A stretch of DNA of 64,000 bases. Origin: an uncultured Flavobacteriales bacterium. Lineage in GTDB: Bacteria > Bacteroidota > Bacteroidia > Flavobacteriales_D > Sanyastnellaceae. The DNA lies in the NCBI GenBank assembly GCA_905478325.1, contig CAJQIB010000029.1, positions 1-64,000 on the forward strand, given 5' to 3'. The notes under the pieces are model-generated. The model was not told where the DNA came from and made no database searches. It saw only the letters and a list, made by a program, of their open reading frames with translations. The position numbers were made by a program, and so were the translations under genes. Below are positions 6,105 through 41,876 of the stretch, piece after piece; position 1 is the first letter of the stretch, and every line of letters starts with the position of its first letter.

Positions 6105-6992
6105 TCAGTATTTTACCACGCGCAGATTCGACCAGATCGGACTTGAAAAACGAAGATGGTATAGTCCTGAAGGCAATGATTCCAAATCGATGGTTTGGTC
6201 CTCCTGTACGATTTGGCCGGATGCTTGGATTTTCCCGTTGGAATCATAGAGGAGATAGCTGCAGCCCAATGAGCCTAGCGTTGATTGTAGTATCACAGCA
6301 TTGTTTGTGGGATTCGGATAAACCAATGGCACAGGTTCGAGACCCTGCATCTCATTCAATCGACTGGTATCATCAAAAATGCAACGGACACAATTGCCAT
6401 CCCCTTTGGCGCGAGTGCCCATCATGGCCAGATCAACCGAAATTCCCAAGTTGCGCGAGTCCGTACCATTGGACTCCCGAGTTCGATACCCCACAAAGGC
6501 ATTGACATTTCCAATCGTCCCCGACATTCGACTGCGCGCACCGGCCAGCGGAAGCTTCAAGAGAGAAGTCATGGCACCTGCGGCATCTTGACTGTCCCAG
6601 GTCGCCATCTCTTCCAACCACTCGGATTCTGTGGGGATACTGAATCCCCAAGGACACGGATTGTTTATGCCGTCCCAACCATACCAGAGATCAGGATTGG
6701 AAGGGACACGCCAGTCATCCGAACCCAAAATAAACAGGTCGTGTCCGGGGAAATCTGATCCCGCAACCTCTGCAGTCGTGCCTGATGTGCGCAATTGGTG
6801 ACCATCACTGCCTCTTCCCCATTGGTACAAATGTCCAAAACTCGCACTATCCGTGCTGGAAACAGCCACTTGGCTAGCCCCCAAATTTTTATCCATCCAC
6901 GTTCGTCCTGTAACAGGATTCGTAACAGATTGCGCCGACGTTGTTTCAAAAAAAGCAAGTGAGATGAGGAAGGAGATCGAACGGTAATGCAT
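6105..6992 (-). CDS. secreted FISUMP-domain protein with T9SS sorting domain
   Basis: 295 residues. A signal peptide (ISFLISLAFFETTSAQ) is followed by a FISUMP domain (Fibrobacter succinogenes major paralogous domain): GRTWMDKNLGA near residue 29, a WGRGSDGHQ loop, the paired DDWRVPSNPDLW and GFSIPTESEW motifs, and GNCVRCI close to the domain end. The last 75 residues carry a Por/type IX secretion sorting domain (YPNPTNNAVIL, LYDSNGKIQASG, SLPSGLYHLRF). The product is therefore exported across both membranes and probably anchored at the surface; its ligand is unknown. ATG 6992 is fixed by a TAGGTTTG promoter element ending four bases upstream. It converges with the protease gene. Confidence 0.87.
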   Translation of the reverse strand: MHYRSISFLISLAFFETTSAQSVTNPVTGRTWMDKNLGASQVAVSSTDSASFGHLYQWGRGSDGHQLRTSGTTAEVAGSDFPGHDLFILGSDDWRVPSNPDLWYGWDGINNPCPWGFSIPTESEWLEEMATWDSQDAAGAMTSLLKLPLAGARSRMSGTIGNVNAFVGYRTRESNGTDSRNLGISVDLAMMGTRAKGDGNCVRCIFDDTSRLNEMQGLEPVPLVYPNPTNNAVILQSTLGSLGCSYLLYDSNGKIQASGQIVQEDQTIDLESLPSGLYHLRFSSPIWSNLRVVKY

Positions 6993-6996
6993 TTCA

Positions 6997-7004
6997 CAAA
7001 CCTA
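6997..7004 (-). promoter_or_regulatory. TAnnTTTG promoter element, leaderless spacing
   Basis: Minus strand TAGGTTTG, followed by TGAA and the ATG at 6992. A TTG on the minus strand (plus 7025-7027) lies 20 bases upstream of it, close to the ideal N19. Confidence 0.6.
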
Positions 7005-7094
7005 TTCATCTTCGTCGCTGCGTCCAAGACAAACAAAATCAAAGGAGTAAGCACTCATCTCTTCCTCCCACAGCCATTGTGCTATCTTGCCTGT

Positions 7095-7382
7095 ATGAAC
7101 TCAAGCCCCCTGTTCCTCATCGTGTTGGCAGGCATCACTTTACTGTGCATTCAGTGTAGCTCGCACGCTAACAGCGTGCAATACGCAGCAGAAATGAATG
7201 CTGCGGTGACTTCCGAAATAACGTGTCCTCAATGCGGACACAAAAAAATTGAGACGCTGCCCACTGAGGTCTGCCAAATTCGCTACACCTGTGAAGCCTG
7301 TGCGGCGGAGTTAACTCCACTTCGTGATGACTGCTGCGTGTTTTGCACATACGGCGACCACAAATGTCCTTCTAAACAATAG
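7095..7382 (+). CDS. GDCCVxC-type Cys-rich small lipoprotein
   Basis: 95 residues from ATG 7095. The longer frame back to 6987 overlaps the divergent FISUMP start and adds no signal sequence. The N-terminus is hydrophobic with a possible lipobox (ITLLCIQC). The body has a zinc-ribbon-like CPQCGHKK, a second CEAC pair, and the hallmark DDCCVFCTYGDHKCPSKQ, which corresponds to the GDCCVxC family whose usual ending is GDCCVFCSYG..PCP. Some members of that family are selenoproteins; here all positions are ordinary Cys codons. Members often lie near mercury or other metal-transport genes, but no such gene is nearby here. A periplasmic metal or thiol role is likely, the exact one unknown. Confidence 0.78.
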   Translation: MNSSPLFLIVLAGITLLCIQCSSHANSVQYAAEMNAAVTSEITCPQCGHKKIETLPTEVCQIRYTCEACAAELTPLRDDCCVFCTYGDHKCPSKQ

Positions 7383-7450
7383 CTCTCAGACTTGACGAGC
7401 GATTACTAGAGTGCTCCCAAAAGCCTTCCAATTCCTCTTCTTAAAACAAA

Positions 7451-7478
7451 AAAACCGCATCATTGCTGATGCGGTTTT
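7451..7478 (-). terminator. terminator of tRNA-Pro
   Basis: Perfect stem AAAACCGCATCA/TGATGCGGTTTT with a 4-base loop, followed on the minus strand by further T residues. It lies 5 bases after the tRNA-Pro 3' end. Confidence 0.85.
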
Positions 7479-7482
7479 GAAG

Positions 7483-7557
7483 TCGGGGCGGCAGGATTCG
7501 AACCTGCGATCTCCTGGTCCCAAACCAGGCGCCGTAACCGGACTAGGCCACGCCCCG
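7483..7557 (-). tRNA. tRNA-Pro (TGG)
   Basis: Minus-strand cloverleaf: acceptor CGGGGCG/CGCCCCG, D-arm with GGTTAC, anticodon loop TTTGGGA (anticodon TGG), T-arm GCAGGTTCGAATCCTGC, discriminator A. No encoded CCA. Confidence 0.95.
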
Positions 7558-7575
7558 TGCTCGAAAGCGGGGGGG

Positions 7576-7605
7576 CAAAGATAGTCCGTTTTATTCCCTG
7601 TGCAA
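7576..7605 (-). promoter_or_regulatory. tRNA-Pro promoter (TTG-N19-TAnnTTTG)
   Basis: Minus strand: TTG (plus 7603-7605), exactly 19 bases, then TATCTTTG (plus 7576-7583), ending 18 bases before the tRNA. This is a textbook Bacteroidota housekeeping promoter. Confidence 0.85.
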
Positions 7606-7732
7606 TGCCTCCTTTCAAAGTTGTTCAACACCCATTCAAAAAATAGCTGATTCCACTCTTAGAAAAAGGGTTTTAAAAGCGCCTGGGCCACATATATTCC
7701 CACATAGGACGCTTGAAGTCATGGCATGAAAA

Positions 7733-7759
7733 AAGGCCAACGCACGCAGCGTTGGCCTT
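7733..7759 (-). terminator. terminator of tRNA-Ser
   Basis: 11-bp stem AAGGCCAACGC/GCGTTGGCCTT with the minus-strand tail TTTTTTC, immediately downstream of tRNA-Ser. Confidence 0.88.
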
Positions 7760-7764
7760 CATTG

Positions 7765-7848
7765 TGGAGAGACAGGGAATCGAACCCTGGAGACAGTTTC
7801 CCGTCGACAGATTAGCAATCTGCTCCATTACCGCTCTGGCACCTCTCC
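7765..7848 (-). tRNA. tRNA-Ser (GCT)
   Basis: Minus strand, class II tRNA with a long variable arm (GACGGGAAACTGTC). Acceptor GGAGAGG pairs with TCTCTCC, anticodon loop TTGCTAA gives GCT, T-loop GGTTCGAATCC. Confidence 0.95.
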
Positions 7849-7880
7849 AATATCATTGTCGGTCGTATCCTAAGCGGCGA

Positions 7881-7910
7881 CAAAGTTAAGATAAAGCCTT
7901 GTGAAAACAA
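7881..7910 (-). promoter_or_regulatory. tRNA-Ser promoter (TTG-N19-TAnnTTTG)
   Basis: Minus strand TTG (plus 7908-7910), 19 bases, TAACTTTG (plus 7881-7888). Exact consensus and spacing. Confidence 0.85.
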
Positions 7911-7970
7911 TAAATAAAGAGTACCTTACTTCCTGAAATTTATCACCGAAACACTTTAACCATTCCATCA

Positions 7971-8351
7971 ATGAAAAAAGTTCTGATTCTCAGCGTATTT
8001 GCGTTTTTCGCATTCGCTGTAAGCGCCCAAACTGACGCCTCTACAACCTCATCTAAGTCCGCAACTGAAAACACTGTTTCTACAAAGGATGGTGCCCAAT
8101 CAGTAAAAAACGTTGCCTTGAACGGAACGAAAACTGCTGACAGCAAGAGTACTGCATCCACCGGAAGCGCGAAAGACAGTAAAAAAGGATCTTGTGATAA
8201 AAGTGCTGCTGCATGTTGCGCTGGCAAATCAGCTGACGCAGGAAAGACTGCTGATGCAGGAAAGAAAGCATCTTGCTGTTCTGGTAAGTCTGCCGCTTCA
8301 TGCGACAAAGGCGCCAAAGCAGACAACAAGGAAGCCAAGAAAAAAGATTGA
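7971..8351 (+). CDS. secreted Lys/Ala/Ser-rich protein with Cys-Cys pairs
   Basis: 126 residues: signal peptide MKKVLILSVFAFFAFAVSAQ, then a low-complexity mature chain of Thr, Ser, Ala, Lys and Asp. The C-terminal half carries GSCDKSAAACCAGKS, ASCCSGKS and ASCDKG, so Cys pairs recur with similar spacing, separated by an ADAGKTADAGK repeat. No fold or family is recognised; the Cys layout suggests a small periplasmic metal-binding or disulphide-rich peptide. It is monocistronic, with divergent tRNA-Ser upstream and its own strong terminator downstream. The composition differs sharply from neighbouring genes, but the signal peptide and flanking signals argue that it is a real gene. Confidence 0.75.
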   Translation: MKKVLILSVFAFFAFAVSAQTDASTTSSKSATENTVSTKDGAQSVKNVALNGTKTADSKSTASTGSAKDSKKGSCDKSAAACCAGKSADAGKTADAGKKASCCSGKSAASCDKGAKADNKEAKKKD

Positions 8352-36606: not shown

Positions 36607-38178
36607 TTAATCGCAGAGTGTATCGTAGAAAGGAAGCCAGAGTAACAGATCGGAAACAGACCGGTTGCCGTTTCCATCGAAATCTCCAAAGCACGGACCT
36701 CCAAATCCGCCGATTCCGCCGTCTCCACTTCCGTCGCTAACGCACTGTCCGATGGAATCGGCCCAAACTGTTCCTTCTCCACAATACGATGGAGGAAGAA
36801 CGAGGCATGACCCATCGTCGTCTGTGGCTGTCTCGTTGAAGTTTTCAGCCAACACATCCATGCAGCCGAGAATTTCAAAGGAGTCACACACCCCATCTCC
36901 ATCCACATCGGAAAGACAGTTTCCAGTGCAGTCCAACGCCACCTCGGGATAAACGCATTCGCCTGAAACATTCGCTACAGCGTCGAAATTGCAAGCAACC
37001 TCATCAAGGCAGCCTGTAAACAAACAACTCCCATCATCATCCGTTGCCGTGACTTCGAAATTATCGGCATTGATGACCGTGCATCCCAGCACCTCTTCTT
37101 CGTCGCAGACCGTATCCCCGTCTATATCCGATACGCATGTACCTGAGCAATCACGATACAGCGCAGCAAAAACACACTGGCCATCATCGTCTGTCGCTTC
37201 AATCATGAAATTACAAGCACCCTGATCTGTGCATCCTGAAATTTCGAAGGGATCACAAATGCCATCACCGTCTGCGTCCAAAAGACAACTTCCATTGCAA
37301 TCGTAACCGTCCATTGGATAATCACACGATTCCAAGTCCGTGACGTTCAGAGCAAAATTGCAGGCCTCTGGATCTTCACAACCGGCAATTTCAAATGGAT
37401 CACACACCCCATCTCCATCGGAATCAGCAAGGCACATTCCAGCGCAGGTATATCCCGTCTCTGCATACACACATGATCCGTCGTTGGCATTGGCCGATGC
37501 ATCAAAATTGCAAGCGTTCACATCCGTACAACCGGGAGCACCCGCGCTGAAACTTCCCGCAATCAGTTGTTCATTGAAAGGATCCCCTCCAATGAAGACT
37601 TGCAAATTGAATAGTCCCTCAATCAAGCCATCTGTCGTCACCTGAGCCAATAAAACACGCAAATCTTCGCCTGCTATGCCATTGGTACTGCCGGGCAATA
37701 CAAACCAACTTCCACCGATTTCAGATTCGACGATCAAATCCTCGCCGGATTCAAATATGGACAACTCCGCCCCCATTCCAATCGTAGAGATTCCATCCCC
37801 ATTGCCCGACTGAGGAGATGTTTCCAATCCAATGGTTACCCAGCTATCATAATTTAAATCGGGCAGGATCCCAATGAAGAAAGCACTGATATCCGTGCCG
37901 AATGACCCTCCTGCTGAATGCTGAAAAAATGATGTAGTTGATGTCAAAGAACAGGGCTCCAAGTCATTGCCATACGCTGCTCCAAGAAAATCTGACTCCG
38001 ATGTCATCAGTCCGTACACCCGGTACGTTGTCATTCCTGAGAAATCGGTATTGCCGATAACGCCTTCATGTTGGGCAACCGTTTCCACCCAAACACTGGT
38101 GAGCTGTGCCGACGATGTCGAACTAACCATACCACTGAATATGGACAACAAGATGAACTTCAAGCGCAAGGATAACAT
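36607..38178 (-). CDS. secreted Cys-rich ACNF/thrombospondin-3-like repeat protein with dockerin-like end
   Basis: 523 residues from ATG 38178, where a good signal peptide begins (LKFILLSIFSGMVSSTSSAQ). The frame extends to 38436 but would run through tRNA-His. Residues 25-195 form a domain seen at the start of many Flavobacteriales surface proteins (GIAGEDLRVLLAQVTTDG). Six repeats follow, alternating a GCTDVNACNFD-type Cys module with a calcium-loop DSDGDGVCDPFEI unit resembling thrombospondin type 3 repeats. The end is FGDFDGNGNRSVSDLLLW...CD, a single EF-hand/dockerin-like motif like the pair in the protease at 3559-5913. Exported, calcium-binding, probably structural or adhesive. Confidence 0.85.
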   Translation of the reverse strand: MLSLRLKFILLSIFSGMVSSTSSAQLTSVWVETVAQHEGVIGNTDFSGMTTYRVYGLMTSESDFLGAAYGNDLEPCSLTSTTSFFQHSAGGSFGTDISAFFIGILPDLNYDSWVTIGLETSPQSGNGDGISTIGMGAELSIFESGEDLIVESEIGGSWFVLPGSTNGIAGEDLRVLLAQVTTDGLIEGLFNLQVFIGGDPFNEQLIAGSFSAGAPGCTDVNACNFDASANANDGSCVYAETGYTCAGMCLADSDGDGVCDPFEIAGCEDPEACNFALNVTDLESCDYPMDGYDCNGSCLLDADGDGICDPFEISGCTDQGACNFMIEATDDDGQCVFAALYRDCSGTCVSDIDGDTVCDEEEVLGCTVINADNFEVTATDDDGSCLFTGCLDEVACNFDAVANVSGECVYPEVALDCTGNCLSDVDGDGVCDSFEILGCMDVLAENFNETATDDDGSCLVLPPSYCGEGTVWADSIGQCVSDGSGDGGIGGFGGPCFGDFDGNGNRSVSDLLLWLPFYDTLCD

Positions 38179-38359
38179 CGGATCGACTTTTTGATGAGCC
38201 CCTATAAGATACGTAATCCATCTATTAATTACATGTTTTCGACAGTGATTATATAACCTACAACCAGCAATACACCCTCTATTCTCCTCTGGTTGACGAA
38301 AACGCGCACGGCTCACGCGTCGTTGATCCGCGCATTCGACTTCCAAAAAGTCAGCATCA

Positions 38360-38389
38360 AAAAAGCCCCACACCGAAGTGCGAGGCTTT
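38360..38389 (-). terminator. terminator of tRNA-His
   Basis: AAAGCC/GGCTTT outer stem and CAC/GTG inner stem with CGAA loop; minus-strand T-run (TTTTTT) follows. Confidence 0.8.
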
Positions 38390-38396
38390 GAAGTTG

Positions 38397-38471
38397 GGTG
38401 GCTAATGGGGCTCGAACCCACGACCCTCGGTACCACAAACCGATGCTCTAACCAGCTGAGCTATAGCCACC
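38397..38471 (-). tRNA. tRNA-His (GTG)
   Basis: Minus strand cloverleaf with the extra G(-1) opposite C73 that is special to tRNA-His. Acceptor GTGGCTA/TAGCCAC, D-arm GCTC/GAGC, anticodon loop TTGTGGT, T-arm GTGGGTTCGAGCCCCAT. Confidence 0.95.
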
Positions 38472-38510: not shown

Positions 38511-39011
38511 TTAATTCGCACTTTTCAGTGCAGGGAATATTGCATGACCGTACAATTCATTGAAAGGGATCCTTTTTTCGATGGGACATCCAATCACATC
38601 CGTGTAGGCATTCACAGGGTTTTCTCCTTTCAACAAGGCCTCCACAGCATCCTGTAAATCCTGATTGCGGGGACTATTCCGGTGCTTTCCCAACGCAAAA
38701 TAGAAATCATTGATTCGGCCACGATACCGCACTTCACCCAGTGAATCCAGCACAAAAACTTCGGGCGTCCAGCTGGCGTTGAGCCGGTCAGCCCACCCCA
38801 CCGTGTCGCGCGCCAATTCCCATTCTACGGCATACCGGTCTTCAAATTCAGCGATTTGCTCCTCAGATACCGTGGGGTTCGGAAACCATCCCACGAACTC
38901 GATTCGTCCCGGGTGTTCTTGCTCCCATTGCGCATGCATCGCATTGAGATAAAACGTGTAGTCCTGGCAAATGGGGCACAATGGCGCTAGAAACACCCAC
39001 ACTTTCCACAT
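38511..39011 (-). CDS. thioredoxin-like protein coupled to the cytochrome/copper protein gene
   Basis: 166 residues from ATG 39011, which shares its A with the TGA of the preceding gene (TGATG), so the two are translated together. The chain opens at once with a thioredoxin strand, VWVFLAPLCPICQDYT, whose CPIC (Cys12, Cys15) is the redox pair. RIEFVGWFPNPTVSEEQI, the cis-Pro region ASWTPEVFVLD and GEVRYRGRINDFYFALGKHR complete an AhpC/Redoxin-type fold. The tail GCPIEKRIP keeps another Cys. No signal peptide is seen, which is odd because its partner is exported. In some bacteria (for example Planctomycetota) the same two modules occur fused in one protein. Confidence 0.85.
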   Translation of the reverse strand: MWKVWVFLAPLCPICQDYTFYLNAMHAQWEQEHPGRIEFVGWFPNPTVSEEQIAEFEDRYAVEWELARDTVGWADRLNASWTPEVFVLDSLGEVRYRGRINDFYFALGKHRNSPRNQDLQDAVEALLKGENPVNAYTDVIGCPIEKRIPFNELYGHAIFPALKSAN

Positions 39012-40597
39012 CAATCGATGACTTGAATGACGTGACTTCGTACCGTACCCAAAGACGTCGTCATGCGGTAGAAGTACGTTCCCGAATTCAATTCTCCCAA
39101 CACAAACGTCCGCTGATGGTGCCCTGCTGCAAAGGATTGCTCCGGCATCCAAGTATCCACCATGCGCCCCCGGAAATCCAAAAGATCCAAGGTGACATCT
39201 GCGCCTTCATTCAAATGAAAACCAATGGTGACCTCCTGGCCGGATCGATTCGGGTTGGGCCAAGCCGGAAACAAGTTGTCCGTTTGATACACAATGCGGG
39301 TGTCTTCGTCTGCAGTAGACATGACAATGTTCTCATCGCCGGGCAGGTAATCCACAAATTGAAAGAACACCACAAACATCTCATCACCCGTGAGATCTCC
39401 CCACGACATCCACTCCGGTGGATCATGTGGGTTGTTGGGATTGTTGGCGGTATTGTCATACGTACAGAACGCGTGGATTTTGTAACCCGCCGGAATGTGC
39501 TTCAACGCCGGGTAACTGAAAATACCCTGCCAGTTGAAGTCCCATTCTGGAATCGAAATCATCGGTATCGTATCGTTTCCGTTGGCAGAAACGGCGTACA
39601 CTTCCCACGCTTGACCCAACAGGTGACAATGTGGTGTAATCGAGAGCACACTGATATCATCTTCAATTTCAAAAATTCCGTGAAAGGTTGGGGTTTCGTT
39701 TGCCGGAATGAAAAAGGGTGCCGTCAAGCTATTGACTGTCATGAGCAATAAGTCCACCTCTCGTTGGATCGGATCTTCAGCAAAAAACAGATTCAAATGC
39801 GTTAAATCAGTTTCATCGACTGCTGATGGACCATAATGCATTTGTAAAAGCAGCCGGCCATCCGGTCCAATTTTCTTCCCAATGGTGGAAGGAAATTCTG
39901 TGGGGGAGGACCCGGGAACCCAGCCGCCAAAAAGGAAGTCCTCCACATTGACACCATAATCGCCAAAACTCTCATACCCCGGTTCAGGGTCCGCTGCATC
40001 CAGCGCTTCCGCTCCAGCAATTGACGTTGGGCTCTCCGTGTACGCAATCAGCGTATGGTGCGCAATGGCAGCGTTTCCTGGTCGGATTTCAATAGCCCGA
40101 ATTTCCGTCTCTTCCGTGACGCCTGTTTCCAGAACAAACACTTGGTATTGCTCTTGCATGTCCCCTCCATGTGCATACGGCTCTGGCATTTCAAGCACCA
40201 AGTCAGGCTCTCCAATTTGACTTCCTTCAGGGAATTCAGGCAATCCGGGATTGTCCGCTGGATTCCCCTCTGGCATGCCCGCATCGTACCAATCAGACAA
40301 CACTTCAATTTGACTCGCTGTCAAAAACCGCTCTCCTCGTAATGTGGCAAATTCAGGATCAGGTGTCCAAGGCGGCATGTAGCCCATGGATGTCACATAG
40401 GAAATGAAGGCTCCATGCTCGGATACTTCCTCATAGGTCGTAAACGGCATCGGCCCAATCTCACCAACACGGTGGCATTGAGTGCAATTCTGATACACAA
40501 TGGGCGCCACATCTGCATGGAATGTCGGCGCTTGACCGCGCACCGAAAAGGCAACCGCGCTGAAGACGAAAAAAGAAAGGATAGAAATACGTTGCAT
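39011..40597 (-). CDS. secreted cytochrome c / copper type II monooxygenase-like protein with T9SS domain
   Basis: 528 residues. Signal peptide (ISILSFFVFSAVAFSVRGQ); a c-type haem site CTQCH at 38-42 in a domain ending with ILTASQIEVLSDWYDAGMPEG-like text; then about residues 125-430 resembling the two PHM-type copper domains: IAHHTLIAY, LQMHYGPSA, SITPHCHLLGQAW and GDEMFVVFFQF supply His and Met residues matching copper ligands. The C-terminal 90 residues are a type IX sorting domain (FPAWPNPNRSGQEV, LDLLDFRGRMVDT, LNSGTYFYRM). A redox enzyme hydroxylating or cleaving an organic substrate at the cell surface is plausible; the substrate is unknown. Confidence 0.87.
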   Translation of the reverse strand: MQRISILSFFVFSAVAFSVRGQAPTFHADVAPIVYQNCTQCHRVGEIGPMPFTTYEEVSEHGAFISYVTSMGYMPPWTPDPEFATLRGERFLTASQIEVLSDWYDAGMPEGNPADNPGLPEFPEGSQIGEPDLVLEMPEPYAHGGDMQEQYQVFVLETGVTEETEIRAIEIRPGNAAIAHHTLIAYTESPTSIAGAEALDAADPEPGYESFGDYGVNVEDFLFGGWVPGSSPTEFPSTIGKKIGPDGRLLLQMHYGPSAVDETDLTHLNLFFAEDPIQREVDLLLMTVNSLTAPFFIPANETPTFHGIFEIEDDISVLSITPHCHLLGQAWEVYAVSANGNDTIPMISIPEWDFNWQGIFSYPALKHIPAGYKIHAFCTYDNTANNPNNPHDPPEWMSWGDLTGDEMFVVFFQFVDYLPGDENIVMSTADEDTRIVYQTDNLFPAWPNPNRSGQEVTIGFHLNEGADVTLDLLDFRGRMVDTWMPEQSFAAGHHQRTFVLGELNSGTYFYRMTTSLGTVRSHVIQVID

Positions 40598-40671
40598 ACT
40601 CGAAAGACGTTAAATGGTACTACAAGTTTAATTCAATCTGGTGGACTTCGTTAAATCTCATCGCCTTCATC

Positions 40672-40679
40672 GAACTTTG
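40672..40679 (+). promoter_or_regulatory. TAnnTTTG-like element, leaderless spacing
   Basis: GAACTTTG (first base off consensus), then TGCCTC and ATG 40686. It argues against the upstream GTG at 40641 as the start. Confidence 0.4.
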
Positions 40680-40685
40680 TGCCTC

Positions 40686-41876
40686 ATGGATTCGCTCGCC
40701 ACCGTTCCGCCCAAACCGAGAATACTGCACATTGCCAGTTGGTACCCTAGCGCGGTGCACGGCACCTTGGGCAATTTTGTTCGACGCCACATCGAAGCGA
40801 TAGCCACGCAATGTGCGAGTGATGTTTGGTATGCAGCGGCGGCACCCAAGGGACAGAAAGTGCCCTTGGACACAGTCCAATCCACTGGTTCAATTACAGA
40901 ACACCTCGTTTACTTCGCCGCGAAAAAACCTGTGGTACGGCAAACCACGCGGGCTTTGTTGCGATTGGCCGAAGTACATGCTGTCCCTCCTTTTGACCTC
41001 ATCCATTTGCACGTCGCTTATCCTGCAGGGCAAGCCGCGAGACTACTGGCCAAGCGCTGGGACTTGCCCTTGGTGGTTACGGAACATTGGACGGCATACC
41101 ATGCGGACCAGCGACACAAGCTCCCTTTTTGGCGAAAACGCAGCATGCGACTTACCGGCCAAGCAAGTACATTGCTCTGCCCGGTATCAGAGGACCTCGC
41201 TTCCAGCATGCGTGATTTTGGGATGGGGAATCATGCTCAGGTCATTCCCAATGTGGTCGATACGAACCTGTTCAAACGGGATGAGTCCGCGCGTTCAGTA
41301 AATGGCTCTTTTGAGTTGTTGCACATCAGTTCCCTGTCGGACGAACAAAAAAACATTTCGGGTATGTTGCGCGCGCTTGCCGATGCGCTGCCTCAATGCC
41401 CTCAGCTGCGCGTGACAATTATTGGTGATGGAGACCCGCTTCCGCACCAACAATTCGCACGGACCTTAGGCATTGCCAATCGTGTGCAGATTCAAGGAGA
41501 AATCCCATTGTCAGAAGTTGCCGAACGCATGCGTGCTGCGAATGCTCTGATCCTCTTTAGCAACTTTGAAAACTTCCCGTGTGTGATCCCTGAAGCTTGG
41601 GCCAGCGGAATCCCTGTGATATCGACGGACGTCGGAGGCATCGCGGAACACCTGACATCCGAGCGGGGAATCCTCGTGAAGCGAGGCGATGAAGCGGCCC
41701 TGACGTCCGCTATTGTCTCCATGTCGACGACCCCTTCACCAGCGCATCGTGATGCGGCTGCGTTGCGGGCCATTGCGACATCGACCTTCAGCATCGAAGC
41801 CATCGCAGACCAATACACCGCGGCATATCAAAAAGCCCTTCATCTTCATGCGTCCAAAGACTCAAGGACCTCATGA
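40686..41876 (+). CDS. glycosyltransferase family 4 protein
   Basis: 396 residues from ATG 40686. GT-B fold transferase: N-terminal RILHIASWYPSAVHGTLGNFVRRHIEAI is the acceptor-side Rossmann start, VSEDLASSM and IPNVVDTNLFKR mark the hinge, and the donor-binding half holds LLHISSLSDEQKNISGMLRAL and the E-x7-E motif in NFENFPCVIPEAWASGIPVISTDVGGIAEHL. Transfers a sugar from a nucleotide sugar to a lipid-linked or polysaccharide acceptor. The ATGA overlap with a flippase gene points to surface polysaccharide assembly. Other genes of such a locus are not in this window. Confidence 0.92.
   Translation: MDSLATVPPKPRILHIASWYPSAVHGTLGNFVRRHIEAIATQCASDVWYAAAAPKGQKVPLDTVQSTGSITEHLVYFAAKKPVVRQTTRALLRLAEVHAVPPFDLIHLHVAYPAGQAARLLAKRWDLPLVVTEHWTAYHADQRHKLPFWRKRSMRLTGQASTLLCPVSEDLASSMRDFGMGNHAQVIPNVVDTNLFKRDESARSVNGSFELLHISSLSDEQKNISGMLRALADALPQCPQLRVTIIGDGDPLPHQQFARTLGIANRVQIQGEIPLSEVAERMRAANALILFSNFENFPCVIPEAWASGIPVISTDVGGIAEHLTSERGILVKRGDEAALTSAIVSMSTTPSPAHRDAAALRAIATSTFSIEAIADQYTAAYQKALHLHASKDSRTS

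Follow-up and report, generated by a model that had tools for sequence, protein, structure and literature searches.

How might an oxygenase that appears to be sent to the cell surface be served by a thioredoxin-fold protein whose gene lacks a signal peptide? The question is raised by two genes on the reverse strand of a 64,000-nucleotide stretch of DNA from an uncultured Flavobacteriales bacterium; this whole stretch was analysed and is referred to below as the window. Features of the two genes are given in Table 1, in which conservation is expressed as counts in two alignments, one of 85 oxygenase sequences and the other of 56 members of the thioredoxin family. The first omits L112 (a near copy of L111), L172 (which holds X), L162 (a two-piece match) and matches shorter than 330 residues; the second omits L112 and L172.

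Table 1. Positions of the gene pair and its features in the window, with supporting evidence
Feature	Position	Strand	Detail
Thioredoxin-fold gene	38511..39011	(-)	166 aa + stop, without signal peptide
C142 of C-terminal GCPIE	38586..38588	(-)	55/56, one gap
CPIC active-site motif (C12, C15)	38967..38978	(-)	C12 56/56, C15 12/56
TGATG stop/start overlap	39009..39013	(-)	TGA 39013-39011, ATG 39011-39009
Oxygenase gene	39011..40597	(-)	528 aa + TGA stop
T9SS type A C-terminal sorting domain, residues 446-519	39041..39262	(-)	PF18962, TIGR04183
PHM/DBM-type fold, residues 124-421	39335..40228	(-)	Z 22.4, rmsd 3.4, 264 aligned to 5wja
CuM ligand M407 (DEM), predicted	39377..39379	(-)	on PHM SDEM; 84/85, remaining row a gap
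CuM ligands H323 and H325 (HCH), predicted	39623..39631	(-)	on PHM HTH; 85/85
CuH third ligand H254, predicted	39836..39838	(-)	on PHM QVHY; 85/85
CuH ligands H180 and H181, predicted	40055..40060	(-)	on PHM HH pair; 85/85
M74 of MPPW, candidate distal haem ligand	40376..40378	(-)	85/85
Haem c motif CTQCH (C38, C41, H42)	40472..40486	(-)	85/85
N-terminal Sec-type signal peptide, about residues 1-22	40532..40597	(-)	MQRISILSFFVFSAVAFSVRGQ; judged by eye

Fold, cofactor motifs and export signals of the large protein

The AlphaFold model of the oxygenase has a mean pLDDT of 90.4 and resembles solved structures of the PHM/DBM type (Foldseek E = 1.9e-12 against 5wm0). Among the matches listed, 26 PHM and dopamine beta-hydroxylase entries have Z of at least 18.9; the next has Z = 11.2 and lies on the C-terminal sandwich, and residues 435-528 give beta-sandwich structure matches. 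A single-sequence search of PDB structures with the large protein returned no match, so that profiles were needed for its identification. A profile of 85 relatives matched rat PHM (1yjk, E = 1.5e-10), with the HH, H, HxH and M positions all falling on PHM copper ligands, and a profile of 24 relatives led to dopamine beta-hydroxylase (E = 5.7e-7). Its fold and these six ligands most likely place the large protein in the copper type II (PHM/DBM) monooxygenase superfamily, a prediction in which the copper sites are equated with those of PHM through the fold match and the profile alignment.

Pfam models recognise this family poorly. PF03712 scores 17.7 bits on the window oxygenase, below its cut-off of 23, PF01082 gave no row in the Pfam search of this protein, and PF13442 scores 15.9 bits against a cut-off of 27; at E = 0.001, 37 of the 85 aligned oxygenases match PF03712 and eight match PF01082. 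As the fold and ligands are kept while the PF01082 and PF03712 cut-offs are missed, the protein appears to belong to a remote branch outside the coverage of these models. Peptidylglycine amidation was considered and rejected as the reaction: positions T321, V409 and F411 fall on R240, N316 and Y318 of PHM, which we take to be the residues that bind the peptide substrate and its carboxylate, and since they vary freely among the 85 sequences, none of which has Arg at 321, peptide amidation is not implied.

Export is indicated at both ends of the protein. The first residues, which include the putative signal peptide, are of low confidence in the AlphaFold model, and the C-terminal tail lies just above the cut-offs of both sorting-domain models (27.9 against 27 bits for PF18962, 25.2 against 23 for TIGR04183). 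The genome (98.87% complete) encodes SprA and cytochrome c assembly genes (PF01578), and 62 of 71 T9SS tails among the matches listed for it exceed the cut-off; both haem attachment and T9SS export are thus plausible. By motif, domain and genomic machinery, the oxygenase is predicted to be at once a c-type cytochrome and a T9SS type A cargo. The initial annotation had proposed that a CxxCH haem motif, PHM-like copper ligands and a T9SS domain are combined in one protein, and all three are borne out by the CTQCH motif, the ligand alignment and the two sorting-domain models.

The window genome holds one full-length copy of the oxygenase, its three other matches covering the sorting tail only; of 60 genomes, the window's own among them, 37 have oxygenase matches. 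In genome G018, tandem oxygenase genes precede the thioredoxin gene (L095:4908-6536 and 6752-8347) and share 61% and 96% identity with the window protein. The upstream oxygenases of L092 (4496-5983), L093, L099, L102 and L103 end in a short dockerin-like DxDxDGxxTVSDxLxxL tail and have no recognised T9SS tail. Such tails occur where a thioredoxin of the window's clade is flanked by oxygenases on both sides, and in L093; they are possibly another sorting signal.

The thioredoxin-fold partner and the organisation of the pair

The closest solved folds to the small protein are Thermus structures 2ywo and 2cvb (Z = 18.3 and 18.2; phmmer E = 1.5e-10), which place it in the thioredoxin fold, although it scores below the cut-offs of PF00578 (13.6 against 26 bits) and PF08534 (11.4 against 26.6). 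PF00578 matches 53 of the 56 aligned family members at E = 0.001. The model for the TUGYCR thioredoxin-fold (seleno)protein, NF053656, scored 18.1 bits on the small protein against a cut-off of 100. Whereas C12 and C142 are close to invariant in the alignment, the second cysteine of the CxxC motif is present in few sequences (Table 1), and this distribution indicates that the family-wide redox pair is probably C12 with C142. The complete CPIC of the window would then probably be a local feature.

The stop codon of the oxygenase gene does overlap the start of the thioredoxin-fold gene, as had been noted at the outset, by a single common base. Among 45 loci with a thioredoxin of the window's signal-less kind, which represent about 43 genomes (L157/L184 and L159/L189 look like identical contigs by their equal length), an oxygenase reading frame lies directly upstream in 44; these include L192, whose thioredoxin gene is split by a run of N, with the oxygenase beside its 5' half. 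In the remaining locus, L100 (genome G286), the thioredoxin is likewise signal-less but the only oxygenase lies downstream, the upstream frame not being an oxygenase. Without L100, the gap between the two genes ranges from -17 to 42 bases. Fusion of the two products by frameshift or readthrough was also considered and rejected. The relative frames at the junctions are distributed 30:13:2 across the 45 loci (29:13:2 without L100), and as all three frames occur, frameshift fusion is excluded.

In a sample of 299 genomes of the order, the small gene was found in 71 (the window's own counted), and the large gene is adjacent or fused to it in 70 of these 71, an association beyond chance. The close pairing argues for some lasting functional tie between the two products, which counts against the cytoplasmic role favoured below for the thioredoxin. 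The large gene also occurs in this sample without the small one (e.g. L200-L203). The sole exception to the pairing is G028, where a family thioredoxin with a signal (L070) has no oxygenase nearby, in a genome without an oxygenase match at 1e-10. This orphan gene (L070:5998-6516) adjoins sigma and anti-sigma-like genes, named by eye.

Two neighbours of the pair were also noted. The protein encoded at 36607-38436 (-) is of a surface type, having repeats that resemble CTDxxACNFDxxAxxxDGSC and a C-terminus like that of a dockerin; homologues are found downstream of the gene pair in G008, G018 and G011, and beside the orphan thioredoxin of L070. On the other side, a divergent glycosyltransferase-like gene (40641-41876 (+), named by eye) adjoins the oxygenase, and because its homologues occupy the equivalent place in loci of the same genus, the position of the locus appears to be old in the genus.

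Absence of the signal peptide and the role of the partner

The initial annotation had described the CPIC gene as lacking a signal peptide, and a check for hidden signals agrees with it. In the AlphaFold model of the thioredoxin the first strand begins at residue 2, the first ten residues having a mean pLDDT of 98, which leaves no space for a signal peptide. The true start could instead lie upstream, inside the oxygenase gene, and so supply one; indeed, the window frame is open for 65 codons upstream and contains a TTG at 39152. Such a start is contradicted by the loci of the window's genus, where 12 of 18 (window counted) carry an in-frame stop 1-13 codons ahead of the conserved ATG, and by the weak hydropathy of the window extension, which reaches 1.0 at best and has no strongly hydrophobic segment, and we consider it hardly credible.

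Signal-like N-termini were called across the family by a hydropathy heuristic, not a trained predictor, which takes the best of all possible starts including GTG and TTG; two spurious rows, a second match in the window and an unrelated thioredoxin in L097, are left out of the count. All 67 separate thioredoxins outside the window's clade have a signal-like N-terminal 11-mer (mean hydropathy at least 1.71). Among the 29 rows of the clade, 17 leave no room for a hydrophobic stretch and 12 reach 0.46-1.70, 11 of the latter from non-ATG starts; the margin is thin (1.70 vs 1.71), with L099, L102 and L103 the least clear rows. The signal-less clade has an SH-aLRT of 99 in two trees, entails one change of state, and comprises the window's genus (g1) and the genus-level groups g3 and g10 of its family. 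Most simply, these trees suggest, the signal was lost once, in an ancestor, as opposed to being gained repeatedly. One member grouped with g10 (L193, from G111) has an MWKVW start, 65% identity to the window thioredoxin and a genus-like junction; the oddity may reflect a misplaced contig or a transfer.

Two explanations of the missing signal were considered and rejected. If a cytosolic paralogue had taken the place of the partner, the genome's paralogues, L209 and L215, would be expected within the signal-less clade, but they fall outside it, in a tree that omits the long-branch rows L115, L145, L154 and L166 and in which both paralogues sit on long branches flagged by the tree program. Nor is the downstream position of the gene the cause, as signal-like N-termini are retained by nine thioredoxins encoded downstream in other lineages (L129, L131, L133, L135, L142, L156, L171, L178 and L183).

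For a wider comparison we used the best 80 of 576 loci, from other species, retrieved with the peptide pattern I[PN]xW[DN]FxWQ and scored against L082, a fused chain found even in the window's own order; as all derive from one pattern, their proportions are no census and conservation of the pattern motif is circular. One further tree covered 17 of these 80 loci. Among these best 80 of 576 loci, 14 are fused (12 N-fused, the tandem L122 and the C-fused L146), 42 are split, and 24 have no visible thioredoxin in the stretch examined, including L134, L136 and L141, which are cut less than 300 bases upstream. In the split loci the thioredoxin lies upstream in 31, downstream in eight and in L156, and on both sides in two. 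The occurrence of both modules in one chain in other phyla, as initially proposed, is supported by the 14 fused loci; the view of the split form as an oddity is not, since it is the commonest form in the set. By the hydropathy heuristic, all 40 split thioredoxins outside the window's clade have a signal-like N-terminus (among the 42 split loci of the best 80 of 576). Judged by these sequence comparisons, it is the missing signal, and not the splitting of the genes, that is the unusual feature here. Three Acidobacterial and planctomycete contigs (L121, L124, L163) carry three successive oxygenase matches each, some of them truncated where the contig stops, which suggests family expansion and varied substrates.

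The puzzle that the annotation drew from the split form, namely how electrons or copper reach the exported half, survives in a weaker form than stated: one chain bears both haem and copper domain, and no thioredoxin is visible in 24 of the best 80 of 576 loci. The oxygenase may thus not need a thioredoxin, and self-sufficient oxygenation is the simpler reading.

Is the signal-less thioredoxin itself still functional? It might be decaying, having stayed in the operon only by chance, and its dN/dS does exceed that of the oxygenase in every pair for which both are finite. Its values nevertheless remain low (0.08-0.21, compared with 0.02-0.08 for the oxygenase; for each gene dS was finite in seven of 11 pairs and saturated in the other four). 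CPIC and GCPI are kept in all 29 clade members. The ratio of thioredoxin to oxygenase distances in the genus (median 1.45, range 0.52-6.88) also has its median within those of signal-bearing groups (1.33, 1.86 and 2.19). On these measures the thioredoxin is a working, constrained gene, and decay is very improbable.

The explanation we favour, with a probability of roughly 0.55, is that the surface oxygenase uses its own haem as the point of electron entry and that a single ancestral shift gave the thioredoxin a redox role in the cytoplasm. The oxygenase would be made with a Sec signal, acquire haem c in the periplasm and cross the outer membrane by T9SS. Electrons would enter through the N-terminal haem and pass to CuH, O2 would be activated at CuM, and a C-H bond of the substrate would be hydroxylated; we infer the use of haem in place of ascorbate, the direction of electron flow and the type of reaction alike. 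Elsewhere in the family, the C12/C142 redoxin, fused or encoded alongside and apparently exported, would probably keep copper or haem-site thiols reduced or load the enzyme. In the window's lineage this helper, encoded behind the oxygenase, would have lost its signal peptide, and stop/start coupling would let it be made from the oxygenase mRNA. As a thiol-redox protein under constraint it would remain cytoplasmic, most likely without contact with the mature enzyme, its likeliest job being cytoplasmic thiol or peroxide chemistry linked to oxygenase production through co-expression.

The coupling of the genes is open to other readings. Coupled translation would bring both products together at one ribosome, where the thioredoxin could act on the unexported oxygenase chain, holding its cysteines reduced (there are just four, C38, C41, C324 and C378) or delaying its folding before Sec. 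However, the cytosol is already reducing, and signal-bearing relatives with identical haem cysteines do without such help, so that we consider this role unlikely. A thioredoxin that still serves the exported enzyme, reaching the envelope without a signal of its own (e.g. with the nascent oxygenase) and reducing or metallating it, would account for the near-constant pairing, the stop/start coupling and the motifs kept throughout the clade. It would also be a new way of bringing a helper to a surface metalloenzyme. Against this, the oxygenase N-terminus contains no twin arginine, the nine downstream thioredoxins of other lineages retain signal-like N-termini, and neither Sec nor T9SS is known to us to allow such hitchhiking; delivery of this kind seems to us quite improbable.

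Separately, the window genome encodes two tandem thioredoxin-fold genes with T9SS tails (L214; G000, contig C9:44781-47757), and it is possible that these are surface thioredoxins able to supply extracellular reductant.

Comparison with known systems

Neither the superfamily nor the redoxin fold is new, but the window proteins score below the Pfam cut-offs for PHM and redoxin. In fold, the oxygenase is related to animal enzymes that modify peptide hormones. PHM is described as widespread in eukaryotes (PMC8812541). Among the matches listed in the open-access literature, we found no description of a bacterial protein with fused or paired redoxin, haem and PHM-type modules. The best 80 of 576 loci span six phyla, a spread suggesting that PHM/DBM-fold copper oxygenases have a branch common in bacteria, in which a built-in haem could replace ascorbate.

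Rat PHM (1phm, 5wja) resembles the window oxygenase in fold (Z = 22.4 over 264 residues) and, by profile, in six copper-ligand positions; the window protein differs in having haem c and a T9SS tail, and none of the 85 sequences has Arg at the R240 position. Dopamine beta-hydroxylase (4zel) is similarly close (Z = 21.7 over 266 residues; E = 3.1e-7 with the profile of 85 relatives), and to our knowledge has neither a haem nor a sorting tail; the similarity does not imply that its substrate is shared. For the small protein, the Thermus thermophilus structures 2cvb and 2ywo share a C-terminal GC motif with it (31% identity over 141 aligned residues at Z = 18.3), but lack the second active-site cysteine and have a longer N-terminus, residue 1 of the window protein falling on residue 34. 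A parallel to the pair as a whole is found in Planctomycetota and Armatimonadota, where chains that join redoxin, haem c and copper monooxygenase (e.g. L105, L113) have the same modules in the gene order of the upstream-split loci. As single chains, these hold both modules in one compartment, and among the matches listed the second active-site cysteine is Ser or Ala in 13 of 15 fused domains. Together with the window's lineage they offer a natural experiment: the partners may form one chain, seem to be exported side by side, or seem to lie on opposite sides of the inner membrane, and the need for a thioredoxin can thus be compared between lineages.
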